From the NCBI RefSeq assembly GCF_025399835.1, contig NZ_JAODVR010000001.1, forward strand, positions 3,100,001-3,164,000: a DNA stretch of 64,000 nucleotides, written 5' to 3'. The notes under the pieces are model-generated. The model saw nothing but the letters and a program-made list of their open reading frames with translations, made no database searches and had not been told where the DNA came from. The DNA comes from Haloarchaeobius sp. HME9146. Lineage in GTDB: Archaea; Halobacteriota; Halobacteria; Halobacteriales; Natrialbaceae. The position numbers were made by a program, and so were the translations under genes. Of this stretch, positions 24,538-33,297 are shown piece after piece. Each line of letters opens with the position of its first letter. Within the stretch, counting starts at the first letter, position 1.

Positions 24538-24945
24538 ATGGAACTGAAAAACCTCTTTACAGACGACGACGCGGTCTCGCCGGTTATCGGCGTCATCCTG
24601 ATGGTCGCCATCACGGTGATTCTGGCCGCAGTTATCGGCGCATTCGTACTGAACATCGGTGGATCGCAGGAGAAGGTGCCCCAGGCGAGCTTCTCCTATG
24701 CCAACAACAGCGGTAACATCACCATCACGCACGATGGTGGAGACGATATTGAACTCTCTCAGCTTGAGGTCACGAACGGTTCGGCCACGAACTCCAGCCT
24801 CAGTCTGTCCGGTGGTGCAACCACTTGGAGTGGTGGTATGAGCATGGACAATGCTACGTACAGCAGCGGGTCCGAGACCGTCCGTATCGTCTGGAATAGC
24901 CCGAGCGGTGGGAGCAGCAACGTGATCAGCGAGCACCAGTTCTAA
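24538..24945 (+). CDS. Archaeal type IV pilin 1
   Basis: 135 residues. A class III prepilin signal ([12 protein letters not shown]) is followed by the invariant hydrophobic domain [20 protein letters not shown] of the archaeal PilA-type N-terminal family. The prepilin peptidase PibD would remove the charged leader. The remainder is a small Ser/Asn/Thr-rich beta domain with several N-x-S/T sequons, ending near [15 protein letters not shown]. It is expected to assemble into adhesive pili on the cell surface. A second pilin starts 2 bases after its stop. Confidence 0.95.
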
Positions 24946-24947
24946 CA

Positions 24948-25370
24948 ATGAATCTTAAAAACCTCTTCACAGACGACGACGCAGTCTCGCCGGTCATCGG
25001 CGTGATCCTCATGGTCGCGATTACGGTCATTCTCGCGGCTGTGATCGGTGCGTTCGTTCTGAATATTGGCGGCAATCAAGAGAAAACACCCCAGGCAACG
25101 TTCTCGTGGGAAAACGGTGCAAGCTCCAACCTGAACATCACTCATGAGGGAGGTGACACTCTGGACCCGACAACGCTCTCACTTGCTGGTGCGGGCTTCA
25201 GTCAGGACTTGGACAGTGTTGGCAGTTTCTCGAGTGGTGCATCTGAGTGGACTGCTGGTGAAACGTATTCGTCGACGAACACTGGCAACTCTGGTGAAAC
25301 GGTGCGACTCGTTTGGTCCTCCCCCAGCGGTGGAAGTAGCAACGTCATTGCAGAGTACACGCTCCCGTAA
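24948..25370 (+). CDS. Archaeal type IV pilin 2
   Basis: 140 residues. The leader and hydrophobic domain are nearly identical to those of pilin 1 ([18 protein letters not shown]), and it shares the C-terminal [10 protein letters not shown] motif, but the middle of the head domain differs. It is a tandem duplicate with diverged surface. The two genes are co-transcribed (2-base gap) and could form heteropolymeric pili. No prepilin peptidase or assembly ATPase is encoded in this window. Confidence 0.95.
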
Positions 25371-29527: not shown

Positions 29528-29571
29528 ACGAGGACAGAGGAACACCTATCACAAAAGTTACAGAGTGTGCG

Positions 29572-29698
29572 TTCCGGAAGTTCCGGAAGTCGTCGGTTCG
29601 GTCGAAAACGGTCGTTTCGATGCCTCTGAATCCGGAATAGCACCGTTCCGGAAAGGGGCCGGAAGTCGTTCCGGAAGCGTTCCGGAAGTGGTCCGGAT
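29572..29698. promoter_or_regulatory. Array of TTCCGGAA palindromes upstream of the PolB2 operon
   Basis: Perfect TTCCGGAA occurs at 29572-29579, 29581-29588, 29646-29653, 29669-29676 and 29680-29687. Variants are ATCCGGAA 29630, GGCCGGAA 29657 and GTCCGGAT 29691. Eight sites in 127 bases end 45 bases before the RadA-like start codon. The motif is its own reverse complement, as an operator for a dimer would be. The function is inferred. Confidence 0.6.
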
Positions 29699-29766
29699 GG
29701 GTTGCTGGGGAGTGACGCGGGTCCAGCCGACGGGTCGGGACGAGTCGTCCGAGCCGTCACCGAGGG

Positions 29767-30396
29767 TCAGGCTCGGTCGTCATCGAGCGCCCGGGGCTGC
29801 GGCTGGGGCTGTGGTTGTGGCTGTGGCTGTGGTTGTGGCTGCGGTTGGGGCTGTGGGCGGGGCTGTGGCTGCGGTTGGGGCTGTGGGCGGGGCTGTGGCT
29901 GCGGTTGGGGCTGCGGTCGCTGGGGCTCCGGCTCGGGGCCGGAATATGGCTGGGCCGGTTGGGTCTGCTTGCTGGTACAGACGTACGCGTTGTACACGTG
30001 GCTGTACTTGCACCGGTAGTTCATCCGCGCCCAGTAGCTGGTCGGATAGTTACGGCAGATGTACGCGCCCAGTTCACGGCTGTACTGGCAGTTCGGCTGT
30101 GCGGAGCCGCCGCCAGCCGTCCGGCAGATGTACGCGTTCAACTCGCGGTTGTACCGGCACTGGAGCCCCGAGGCTGCGGGGTCTACCGGGCGGCGAAGGC
30201 AGACGAACGCGCCCAGCCCACGGTTGTACTGGCAGCTGAACGTTGTGGTCCAGCTTCGGGGAGCGCTCTGCCGTGAGACAGCGCCGCCAGCGGCGTCAGC
30301 CGCGGCGATGCCACTCCCGAGCCCGAGACAGATACCCCCGATACCGATGCTCCGGACGAGGTCGCGCCTCGTCACTCCTCGGTCTGGTTCTCTCAT
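29767..30396 (-). CDS. Tat-exported Cys-X10-Cys repeat protein 1
   Basis: 209 residues. The Tat signal has VTRRDLVRS at residues 8-16 and a hydrophobic segment to about 33. Four 12-residue repeats follow: Cys55-Cys66, Cys80-Cys91, Cys103-Cys114 and Cys129-Cys140, consensus C-x-Y-[NS]-R-x-[LF]-[NG]-A-[YF]-[IV]-C. After the last repeat comes a 50-residue Pro-Gln/Pro-Arg tail (PQPQPQPRPQ) that is probably extended. The paired cysteines suggest small disulfide-closed hairpins in an exported protein. It is the last of three tandem paralogs. No known family is recognised, and no catalytic motif is visible. Confidence 0.8.
   Translation of the reverse strand: MREPDRGVTRRDLVRSIGIGGICLGLGSGIAAADAAGGAVSRQSAPRSWTTTFSCQYNRGLGAFVCLRRPVDPAASGLQCRYNRELNAYICRTAGGGSAQPNCQYSRELGAYICRNYPTSYWARMNYRCKYSHVYNAYVCTSKQTQPAQPYSGPEPEPQRPQPQPQPQPRPQPQPQPQPRPQPQPQPQPQPQPQPQPQPQPRALDDDRA
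29800..29930. repeat. Hexamer-like GGCTGT/GGTTGT repeats encoding the Pro-Gln tail
   Basis: About 130 bases of variants of ggctgtggttgt and ggctgcggttgg, including a near-perfect duplication of gggctgtgggcggggctgtg. In the minus-strand gene this reads as alternating Pro and Gln/Arg codons. Such a tract is prone to slippage, so tail length probably varies between strains. Confidence 0.85.
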
Positions 30397-30540
30397 GGTT
30401 GGTGAGGTAGAGATGGTTCCCCCTCAGAGAGACGGAGACGATTGCCGGGGATAGCCTCGCGGCGAAGTGAACGTAACCCGGCAACCACCGGGTTTCCACG
30501 TGATATGTGATTTCCGGTCGGTTAGTCACCGAGCGCAACA
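30397..30540 (-). promoter_or_regulatory. Conserved upstream block of Cys-repeat gene 1
   Basis: About 140 bases before the start codon match the blocks before genes 2 and 3. The best-kept parts are ggttagtcacc at the far end, cggtggttgccgggttac (minus strand) in the middle, and ctctacctcaccaaccatg at the start codon. Copy 1 has more changes than copies 2 and 3. The block probably carries promoter and leader. Confidence 0.6.
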
Positions 30541-30618
30541 ACACCCAAAATCGGTTCAAGCCGGTCGCCGGGACAGTCCCGGTCGCCAGCGGTTCACGGT
30601 CCCGCAGCAGCAGGCAGG

Positions 30619-31278
30619 TCAGTACGACCCGCCCGAGTCCCCACCGAGGGGCTGGTTCTCACCGAACGGGCTGGGCCGCGGCCGTGGGCGTGGCCGTGGC
30701 CGCGGAAGCTCGTCGTCCCCGAACGGGTCAGGCCAGGGGCCAGGGCGGGGCCGGGGGCGCGGGCGTGGCCGCGGCAGGTCGTCCTCGTCGAACGGACGAC
30801 CCGGGCGGAGCCGGCGGCGGCAGATGTACGCGTTGAACCGGCGGCTGTACCGGCAGCGGAACGACCGCGCCCAGTAGCCAGTGGGCCGGCGACGGCAGAC
30901 GTAGGCGTCCAGCCGGCGGTTGTACCGGCAGTACCGCGGCACGAAGTCGGGCCGGTCGGGCCTGATGCGGCGGCAGACGTACGCGTTGAACCGGCGGCTG
31001 TACCGGCACCGGTAGCCGGCGAATCCGGGGTCTATCGGCCGGCGGCGGCAGATGTACGCGTCCAGCCGGCGGTTGTACCGGCATCCTCGCAGGCCGGGAC
31101 GGGGACGTCTTCGACGACGGTCGCGGTCGTCGCGACCGTCACGCTGTGGGGAGAACGGCACGCCACCGGAGACGGTGTCCGCGGCGGCGACGCCGCTCCC
31201 GAGGCCGAGGCAGATGCTCCCGACCCCGATCGTTCGGACGAGGTCGCGCCTCGTCACCCCTCGTATTGGTCCTCTCAT
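30619..31278 (-). CDS. Tat-exported Cys-X10-Cys repeat protein 2
   Basis: 219 residues from ATG 31278. A twin-arginine signal (VTRRDLVRT) almost identical to that of copy 1 is followed by an Arg/Asp-rich linker (DRDRRRRRPRPG). Four repeats occur at Cys66-77, Cys91-102, Cys117-128 and Cys142-153, alternating type A (CRYNRRLDAYIC) and type B (CRYSRRFNAYVC), so the true unit is an A-B pair of about 51 residues. The tail is Arg-Pro repeats with Phe/Asp patches. The protein is strongly basic, unusual for a haloarchaeal exported protein. An in-frame extension to 31425 contains no signal and overlaps the regulatory block. Confidence 0.8.
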   Translation of the reverse strand: MRGPIRGVTRRDLVRTIGVGSICLGLGSGVAAADTVSGGVPFSPQRDGRDDRDRRRRRPRPGLRGCRYNRRLDAYICRRRPIDPGFAGYRCRYSRRFNAYVCRRIRPDRPDFVPRYCRYNRRLDAYVCRRRPTGYWARSFRCRYSRRFNAYICRRRLRPGRPFDEDDLPRPRPRPRPRPGPWPDPFGDDELPRPRPRPRPRPSPFGENQPLGGDSGGSY

Positions 31279-31411
31279 GGTTGGTGAAGGAGGTATCTTC
31301 CCCCTCACCGAAACGGAGGCGATAGGCGAGAATAGCCTCGCGGCGAACCCGGCGTAACCCGGCAACCACCGAGTTTCCTCGCACCACGTGATTTCGCGTC
31401 GGTTAGTCACC
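31279..31411 (-). promoter_or_regulatory. Conserved upstream block of Cys-repeat gene 2
   Basis: It is nearly identical to the block of gene 3 over its distal 60 bases (31350-31411, including cacgtgatttcgcgtcggtt) and similar down to the start codon. The intervening repeat-region coding sequence is more diverged than this block. That argues for a conserved regulatory role or gene conversion. Confidence 0.6.
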
Positions 31412-31507
31412 CCAAGAAACAGCACGGCGGCGCGCCAGTGAGCCGGCCGTAGACCGAACTAGCCCGGAGCAGGCCCCGAAAGCGGCCGGATGGCCCCGGG
31501 TGCTGGC

Positions 31508-32290
31508 TCAGTTCTCGTCGTCGTCAGCGTCGGCTCTGCGTCCCCGGCGTCCGTCACCCGGGCGCGTCCCACGACCACCGTAGGGCGAGTCGTCGAACGG
31601 GCCACGTCCGCGGCCGCCGTCGAATGGGCCCCGTCCGCGGCCATCGTCGAACGGCCAGCGTCCGCCCGGCCGCCCACCGCGCCGTCCCTCACGGCAGATG
31701 AAGGCGTTGAACCGGCGGCTGTACCGGCACCGGAACCGCGGGCGTCGCGGTGGCCGCCGGCAGATGTACGCGTTCAGCCGGCGGTTGTACCGGCAGCCGC
31801 GGGGACCTGGTCGGCCGTCACCGTCGCGTCGACGGCAGACGAAGGCGTTGAACCGGCGGCTGTACCGGCACCGGAACCGCGGGTTCCGTGGCGGGCGACG
31901 GCAGATGTACGCGTCTATCCGCTCGCTGTACCGGCAGCGGCGTGGGCCCGGTCCCGGGCGGTCCGAGTCGTCGTCGACCCGGCGGCAGATGTACACGTTG
32001 AACCGCTCGTTGTACCGGCAGCGGATGAGGCCGGTCGTTATCGGGCGTTCCCGGCAGATGTACGCGTCTATCCGCTCGTTGTACCGGCACCCGCGCAGGC
32101 CGTACCGTGGGCCGCGGCCATCGTCGTCCCGGCCTCGGCCCCGTCCTCGGCCGGGACCGTCGTACTGTCGTGCGAGCGCGTCACGAGGTGCTGCGGCGGC
32201 GGTGCCGCTCGCGAGGCCGAGACAGATGCTCCCGACCCCGATCTTTCGGACGAGGTCGCGCCTCGTCACGCTTCGGTCTGGTCTTCTCAT
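31508..32290 (-). CDS. Tat-exported Cys-X10-Cys repeat protein 3
   Basis: 260 residues from ATG 32290. The Tat signal VTRRDLVRK is followed by a Gly-Arg/Asp linker. Six repeats lie at Cys68-79, 91-102, 119-130, 141-152, 166-177 and 188-199, again alternating an I/L-D/N-A-Y form with an F-N-A/V-F/Y form. The tail has GRGRGPFD units and ends in acidic DDDEN. It is the largest copy and, in the minus direction, first of the three tandem genes. The conserved signal plus variable repeat number and tail suggest modular surface or matrix proteins. Function unknown. Confidence 0.8.
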   Translation of the reverse strand: MRRPDRSVTRRDLVRKIGVGSICLGLASGTAAAAPRDALARQYDGPGRGRGRGRDDDGRGPRYGLRGCRYNERIDAYICRERPITTGLIRCRYNERFNVYICRRVDDDSDRPGPGPRRCRYSERIDAYICRRPPRNPRFRCRYSRRFNAFVCRRRDGDGRPGPRGCRYNRRLNAYICRRPPRRPRFRCRYSRRFNAFICREGRRGGRPGGRWPFDDGRGRGPFDGGRGRGPFDDSPYGGRGTRPGDGRRGRRADADDDEN

Positions 32291-32425
32291 GATGGTGAGG
32301 TGGAGATGGTTCCCCCCTACAGAGACGGAGAAGATGGACGCGAATAGGCTCGCGGCGAAGTCGACGTAACCCGGCAACCACCGAGTTTCCTCGCACCACG
32401 TGATTTCGCGCCGGTTAGTCACCGC
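32291..32425 (-). promoter_or_regulatory. Conserved upstream block of Cys-repeat gene 3
   Basis: Third copy of the shared block: aacccggcaaccaccgagtt at 32369-32388, then the cacgtgatttcgcgccggtt segment and gtcaccg. A leader rich in ccaccatc adjoins the ATG. It ends 32 bases short of the upstream gene's stop, so transcription probably starts here. Confidence 0.6.
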
Positions 32426-32457
32426 GGGAGACAGGAATCGGGGCCGCCACCGCGTCG

Positions 32458-33234
32458 CTACACCGCACCCGCCGGGACCGTCCCGGTCGCGTACAGCGTG
32501 AGGTTCCCGCCGACCCAGAGCACGACGATGAGGAGGACGAGCTGTGCGTGCGAGAGGTCGAGCCCGGCCCAGCGGAGCAGCCGGCGGCGCGTCAGCGGAA
32601 CCGAGACCAGTCCCGCCGCGGTCGCGAGTATCCCCGAGAGGAGGATGCCCACGTTGACCTCGGCGACCGCGAGGAAGAGGACGCCCATGCCCGAGAGCAG
32701 CGCGAGGAGGCCGAACGCCCACGCGACGATGGTCGAGATGATGCCGAACACACCCCGAGACGTGCTCGATGCCGTGGGACCGTCCCAGTCGTCGGCCCAG
32801 GCGTCGGCCGCTTCACGGACCTCTCGAATGGGCGCGAGGTCGGTGCCGCCGCAGTTCGGGCAGACGTCCTTCTGGTCGGGATAGCGCGCTCCACACGCCT
32901 TGCAGAGGTGTTCGACCGACGGGGCCACCGACTGCTGCTGGGCGGTCGCGTTCCGGTCACGGGACGCCGGTTCGGACCGGTCGCCAGTGCCGCCCCAGTC
33001 GTCGTCTATCCAGTGGTCGGCGTCGGTGCCCGTCGAGGCGTTGTTCCCGGTCTCGGCCCACTCGAACTCGTCCGTCGACTCGTCGGTCGTGGCCGCGTCG
33101 TCCCCCCCATCGTCGGCCTCGTCGCCGACGCGAACGAGGGTCTCGCCGGCACAGTACATGCAGGGCGGGTTGTACGACTCGTGGGTGCGCCCACAACTGG
33201 CACAGCGCCATCGGTCGTCGCCAGCAGTGTCCAT
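32458..33234 (-). CDS. Double zinc-ribbon membrane protein, unknown function
   Basis: 258 residues. An N-terminal zinc ribbon (Cys11, 14, 25, 28) is followed by a long acidic Asp/Thr/Glu linker, then a second ribbon, LCKACGARYP with VCPNCGG, near residues 110-130. The C-terminal 100 residues form about three hydrophobic helices (GIISTIVAWAFGLLALLSG, VGILLSGILATAAGLVSV, LVLLIVVLWVGGNLTLYA). The ribbons face the cytoplasm if the N-terminus is inside. It resembles other haloarchaeal zinc-ribbon/transmembrane proteins with no assigned role. It ends just before the promoter block of Cys-repeat gene 3 on the same strand. Confidence 0.82.
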   Translation of the reverse strand: MDTAGDDRWRCASCGRTHESYNPPCMYCAGETLVRVGDEADDGGDDAATTDESTDEFEWAETGNNASTGTDADHWIDDDWGGTGDRSEPASRDRNATAQQQSVAPSVEHLCKACGARYPDQKDVCPNCGGTDLAPIREVREAADAWADDWDGPTASSTSRGVFGIISTIVAWAFGLLALLSGMGVLFLAVAEVNVGILLSGILATAAGLVSVPLTRRRLLRWAGLDLSHAQLVLLIVVLWVGGNLTLYATGTVPAGAV

Positions 33235-33297
33235 GCCGCATAGGTGTCACCCCGTGACGACAAAGGTTCCGCCTGCGGCGACACGGACACGCCCTGC

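Follow-up and report, generated by a model that had tools for sequence, protein, structure and literature searches.

Paired C-X10-C repeats in a genus-restricted family of predicted secreted proteins from Haloarchaeobius

Haloarchaeobius sp. HME9146 carries three neighbouring minus-strand genes encoding proteins of 209, 219 and 260 residues, here copies 1 to 3, in which a predicted twin-arginine (Tat) signal is followed by an array of C-X10-C units and a low-complexity tail. They lie within the window, the whole stretch of 64,000 nucleotides that was analysed. Judged from sequence, the repeat family is new and genus-restricted within the collections searched, although the secreted cysteine-rich repeat protein as a kind is already known. 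The explanation ranked first, rated somewhat short of an even chance, is that these are paralogous secreted proteins whose Arg and Tyr residues act as "stickers" and which would build a coat or matrix outside the cell at molar salt; a protease-released antimicrobial and a soluble polyanion binder come next.

Copy 1 (29767-30396) and copy 2 (30619-31278, with its ATG at 31278) contain four units each and copy 3 (31508-32290), the copy nearest to the gene of the sister species G003, contains six. These three frames, their unit numbers and their near-identical twin-arginine signals had been described in the initial annotation, and all were borne out on the minus strand. The same is true of the differing tails, delimited from the sequence as a Pro-Gln tail in copy 1 (29788-29961), an Arg-Pro tail with two (PR)n blocks in copy 2 (30640-30810) and a Gly-Arg-Asp tail in copy 3 (31511-31693). 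The shared signal reads VTRRDLVR.IG.G.ICLGL.SG.AAA, and the pattern VTRRDLVR, GxGSICLGLGSG and AAA recurs in four of four proteins (copies 1-3 and the product of the G003 gene). The family model TIGR01409 gives the signals 14.9 and 12.3 bits, short of its 16.7-bit cutoff. The cysteine in the h-region is a glycine in the G003 gene, so it is not a lipobox. The signal is probably of the Tat type, without lipobox, and export is predicted.

The unit follows the consensus C-x-Y-[NS]-x-x-[LIFY]-[DNG]-[AV]-[YF]-[IV]-C. The arrays span 29977-30234 in copy 1 (units 30199-30234, 30124-30159, 30055-30090 and 29977-30012), 30820-31083 in copy 2 (31048-31083, 30973-31008, 30895-30930 and 30820-30855) and 31694-32089 in copy 3 (32054-32089, 31985-32020, 31901-31936, 31835-31870, 31760-31795 and 31694-31729), all on the minus strand. 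The distance of 12 residues from Cys to Cys, claimed earlier as constant, is exact in every unit of copies 1-3. The mature proteins contain 8, 8 and 12 cysteines, 28 in total, all of them inside C-X10-C units, and this confinement holds in four of four proteins when the G003 gene is included. Linkers of 10-16 residues lie between successive units of copies 1-3, and of up to 18 residues in the G003 protein.

A pair of units had been proposed as the building block, with a length of about 51 residues. Pairs do recur, but they measure 47-52 residues and not strictly 51; with this adjustment the pair is a real module of the repeat proteins. The alternation of an L/I-D form with an F-N form, described for copies 2 and 3, is exact in copy 2 but holds for only five of the six units in copy 3, where unit 5 is L-N; it is absent in copy 1 and hence copy-specific. 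Asn occupies position 8 of the unit in 9 of 10 second and 1 of 10 first hairpins (Fisher p 0.001, the units not being independent), which is a more general rule of the pair than the alternation. The invariant alignment columns are C, Y, A and C together with a Pro in the within-pair linker, and charges are not among them. The alignment reads as four linker types common to different genes and species: xRPxDP in pair 1 of copies 1 and 2, PxxYWAR in the last pair of copies 1, 2 and the G003 gene, ERPITTGL in pair 1 of copy 3 and the G003 gene, and PPRxPRF in pairs 2 and 3 of copy 3 and pair 2 of the G003 gene. The copy 2 array is also a 75-bp tandem repeat at the DNA level, and pairs 2 and 3 of copy 3 correspond to a 141-bp tandem repeat in the DNA with 84% matches, which indicates that pairs duplicate as units.

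The copy 2 array was modelled with AlphaFold2, with alignments of only 6-10 related rows behind the models, giving a mean pLDDT of 83 and a pTM of 0.60 for one pair and a mean pLDDT of 77 and a pTM of 0.44 for two pairs. Every unit is modelled as strand-loop-strand with a four-residue loop and with Cys1 and Cys12 facing each other at the strand ends (strands 7-10/15-18, 30-35/40-45, 58-61/66-69 and 81-86/91-96 in the two-pair model). The suggestion that each unit could be a hairpin is thus supported by the prediction, which gives a β-hairpin bounded on both sides by cysteine. From the strand register, Tyr3 and Tyr/Phe10 would be expected to face each other across the hairpin as well. No solved structure matched the model in Foldseek at an E value of 0.001 (best E above 2), and a sequence search of the PDB found no relative (E 0.04 or worse). 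These features bear on whether the cysteines might instead hold metal or scavenge oxidants, with no structural disulfides. The cysteine-dense chain and the adjoining zinc-ribbon gene would suit such a metal or redox protein; however, C-X10-C spacing makes a poor metal site where His is nearly absent and CXXC is lacking, the chain is predicted to be exported, and AlphaFold2 makes Cys1 and Cys12 direct cross-strand partners. We regard this explanation as highly improbable.

Several observations bear on whether the frames are translated and under constraint. This genome contains 14 matches to a codon pattern for C-x-Y-x6-[YF]-[IV]-C, each on the minus strand and with the listed positions inside the cluster, and the sister genome G003 contains five. 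Elsewhere among 391 genomes of the class this frame-free DNA pattern stays at the level of a reversed control; confined in this way to the two genomes above the control, the units are not a product of chance. Copy 3 and the G003 gene share 66% residue identity over 238 aligned codons, over which the sense frame gives a dN of 0.26, a dS of 0.63 and a dN/dS of about 0.4, and all 12 cysteines are retained. In two of the three antisense frames dN exceeds dS; the third is non-discriminating, since its third positions are common to the sense frame. The sense-frame ratio counters the objection, foreseen in the initial annotation, that the frames might not be translated. More broadly, these could be fast-evolving, weakly functional repeat genes or untranslated frames, as their presence in two species only, the DNA tandem repeats, the low-complexity tails and the open antisense frames might suggest. 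Against this stand the dN/dS, the 12 of 12 cysteines kept, the conserved signal and the separate leaders of about 130 bp, and we consider it very unlikely.

One-pair and two-pair profiles were run on 391 class, 125 family and 393 phylum genomes. Across these haoarchaeal genomes, more than 390 in number, they recovered a single true relative, a gene of the congener G003 that has six units, the same signal and the same neighbour, and the profile search found no repeat gene in four other congeners. That the repeat belongs to no named family, as first supposed, agrees with searches of Pfam, NCBIfam, PHROGs and PADLOC, which gave no above-cutoff match over the repeat region; copy 1 has no family match, and the best score in the repeat region is for HTH_Tnp_ISL3 (23.9 bits versus a cutoff of 27.4, over just 16 residues). 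Collections of plasmids, phages, viral contigs and genome contigs contained no relative; the contig scans use short exact patterns, which very distant relatives could escape. Weak profile matches were rejected: L081 and L096 sit in or between unrelated genes and are ascribed to chance, L030-L033, L082 and L083 are short and partial, some with internal stops, and L005, from the second replicon, owes its match mainly to its signal and an Arg-rich stretch. With a relative in one sister species only, the family seems to be new and very young.

The genomic setting is that of accessory cargo. The three repeat genes and a zinc-ribbon membrane-protein gene directly upstream of them (32458-33234, minus strand) form an inserted module (29546-33297, minus strand) between orc1 and a radB-like/polB block. 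In the congeners G001 (L106) and G002 (L107) the order is DUF7504, orc1, radB-like, a small gene and polB, and the module is absent; orc1 and radB lie 143 bp apart in G002 (L107:8377-8518), and in G001 (L106:12033-13449) the gap holds a gene that reads from its sequence as a GNAT-like acetyltransferase. G003 keeps the repeat, zinc-ribbon and PP2C genes, and orc1, radB and polB are absent there. Because the slot is empty or filled with a GNAT-like gene or the repeat module depending on the congener, the module is best seen as cargo. The genes and pairs appear to have arisen by duplication within an accessory slot of one genus. Within the genus the zinc-ribbon gene is confined to the same two species and lies upstream of a repeat gene in both. 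At 29546-29766, iterated TTCCGGAA-type palindromes, which resemble iterons or an operator, lie just upstream of the radB-like/polB genes. Elsewhere in the window, two tandem pilin-like genes (24538-24945 and 24948-25370, plus strand) are tandem and diverged in G003 too (L044:9825-10701).

Each repeat gene is preceded by a putative conserved leader or promoter on the minus strand: 30397-30530 for copy 1, which starts at GGTGACTAACCG and holds GGAAACCCGGTGGTTGCCGGGTTACG, 31279-31411 for copy 2 and 32291-32423 for copy 3, the last two delimited by conservation. These stretches of about 130 bp are 79-84% identical between copies and 75-80% identical to G003; the leader begins with the same motif, includes GGAAACYCGGTGGTTGCCGGGTTACG and contains a CGG...CCG inverted repeat. 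The exact core is found at only three places in the genome, ahead of the three repeat genes. This conservation and confinement indicate that each gene seems to own its promoter or leader. The starting motif and the CGG...CCG element could be a binding site or an RNA hairpin. A reading of the leaders as Orc1-binding (ORB-like) origin repeats, considered because of GGAAAC and the position beside orc1, was rejected since the G003 leader has no adjoining orc1 and congeners with orc1 have no leader. An N-terminal extension into the leader is unlikely, since the frame of the conserved leader differs in copy 1.

The mature proteins have pI values of 9.6, 11.5 and 11.2 (copies 1-3), and those of 14 neighbouring genes range from 4.05 to 6.86. 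The basic character ascribed to copies 2 and 3 therefore stands, but its limitation to these two does not, as copy 1 is basic as well. Mature copies 2 and 3 contain zero Lys versus 51 and 62 Arg. Arg makes up 20-28% of copies 2, 3 and the G003 protein, without Lys, but only 10% of copy 1, and Tyr makes up 6-8% in four of four proteins. A net charge of +11 to +34 amid acidic neighbours would suit soluble proteins that use their hairpins to capture extracellular DNA, sulfated or acidic glycans or S-layer sugars without forming a matrix, for use in adhesion, nutrient capture or as a virus decoy. The number of repeats differs, as it does among multivalent binders, and small hairpins would leave their aromatic and Arg side chains exposed. 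In molar salt, however, electrostatic attraction gives weak binding, charge is not a conserved property, and family searches recognised no binding domain. Such a binder is an unlikely explanation, if a serious one.

A halocin-like antagonism, in which proteases would release cationic, disulfide-closed, tachyplesin-like β-hairpins against competing haloarchaea or bacteria, seems to us about as improbable as the soluble binder. The units of copy 2 with four flanking residues carry a net charge of +6 to +8, the Arg-rich linkers could be cleaved, and a narrow family in a variable slot is often seen for competition genes. Yet charge, at -1 to +3 per unit family-wide and 0 to +1 within copy 1, is unconserved, in contrast to Cys, Tyr and Ala. 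No immunity gene was recognised, and the zinc-ribbon gene next door is not diagnostic. Halocin C8 is likewise a secreted cysteine-rich haloarchaeal protein, and to our knowledge has no C-X10-C array; its model TIGR04449 (>24 bits) matched nothing in the whole genome, whereas the Haloferax volcanii control was positive. An extracellular serine protease does activate a secreted haloarchaeal precursor of previously unknown function, HFX_0892/HmHapP (PMC12893001), but this one studied precursor acts through α-helices and not hairpins, and the words cysteine and disulfide occur 0 times in that text. The β-hairpin antimicrobials of the tachyplesin and capitellacin class (PMC7761999, PMC10968102) are disulfide-closed and cationic; here the β-hairpin, with cysteines placed for such closure, is predicted. 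They are short animal peptides without sequence match to the present proteins, which are tandem arrays with long disordered tails, and which conserve Cys and Tyr but not the cationic charge. Matrix, adhesion, metal- and toxin-related surface roles were all left as candidates in the initial annotation; the evidence favours a coat or matrix role over a toxin.

In the coat or matrix explanation, the Tat signal would export the proteins, with the hairpin array followed by the Pro-Arg, Pro-Gln or Gly-Arg-Asp tail. Each unit would be closed by its own disulfide, with Tyr3 and Tyr/Phe10 facing across the hairpin, so that the array would resemble stiff beads on a string and would require no hydrophobic core. 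Molar salt outside the cell would screen charge repulsion while Arg and Tyr of hairpins and tails act as stickers, which would lead to self-association and to binding of acidic surface polymers such as S-layer glycans, DNA or polysaccharide. The outcome could be a coat, glue or matrix, and disulfide exchange between hairpins could harden it. In vitro, a (Pro-Arg)25 peptide, PR25, condenses alone at 2.7 M KCl, and at high salt there is attraction in Arg-Tyr, Tyr-Tyr and Arg-Arg contacts (PMC7889641). The tail of copy 2 has two blocks of this (Pro-Arg)n repeat; PR25 is a model peptide, and the repeat of copy 2 is shorter and follows a chain of predicted hairpins in a protein predicted to be exported. 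The argument fits copy 1 less well, with its 10% Arg and Pro-Gln tail. CdeC and CdeM of the Clostridioides difficile exosporium (PMC6101409) offer a functional analogy only, as lineage-restricted cysteine-rich assemblers of an outer layer; organism, cell type and export route differ. The conserved Cys, aromatic and Ala positions, the pairing, predicted export, the Arg/Tyr/Pro composition and the variable charge would suit a secreted structural protein. The proteins lack any anchor, which would suit free diffusion just as well.

A second cluster, exposed through L005, lies on another replicon (G000:C2, about 513-520 kb; L045:8146-14835) and encodes eight proteins with Tat signals and a high content of Arg, Tyr, Gly and Asp. 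These include (Tyr-Gly-Arg)-rich, RRRRDDDD-rich and RRRF/YYPYY types, and two have Asp-Pro-Cys-Ala repeats; a counterpart (L094) is present on G003:C3. Among six congeners, the one member searched turned up only in the two species that have the repeat genes. The two clusters suggest an investment in Arg/Tyr-rich exported proteins, a comparison confounded by the kinship of both species. A more specific and rather doubtful proposal is a condensate-type matrix peculiar to hypersaline conditions, in which hairpin beads and tails would condense because of the molar salt, together with the proteins of the second cluster.

If true, this would be an archaeal secreted condensate-type matrix without known counterpart. 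Haloarchaeal proteins are mostly acidic, and a strongly Arg-rich protein outside the cell at molar salt has hardly been studied. The three paralogs and one ortholog are a compact, tractable set in which self-association driven by salt can be tested directly on a natural secreted protein. They also show the birth of a family in one genus, through duplication of a hairpin pair of 47-52 residues in a variable slot beside orc1.
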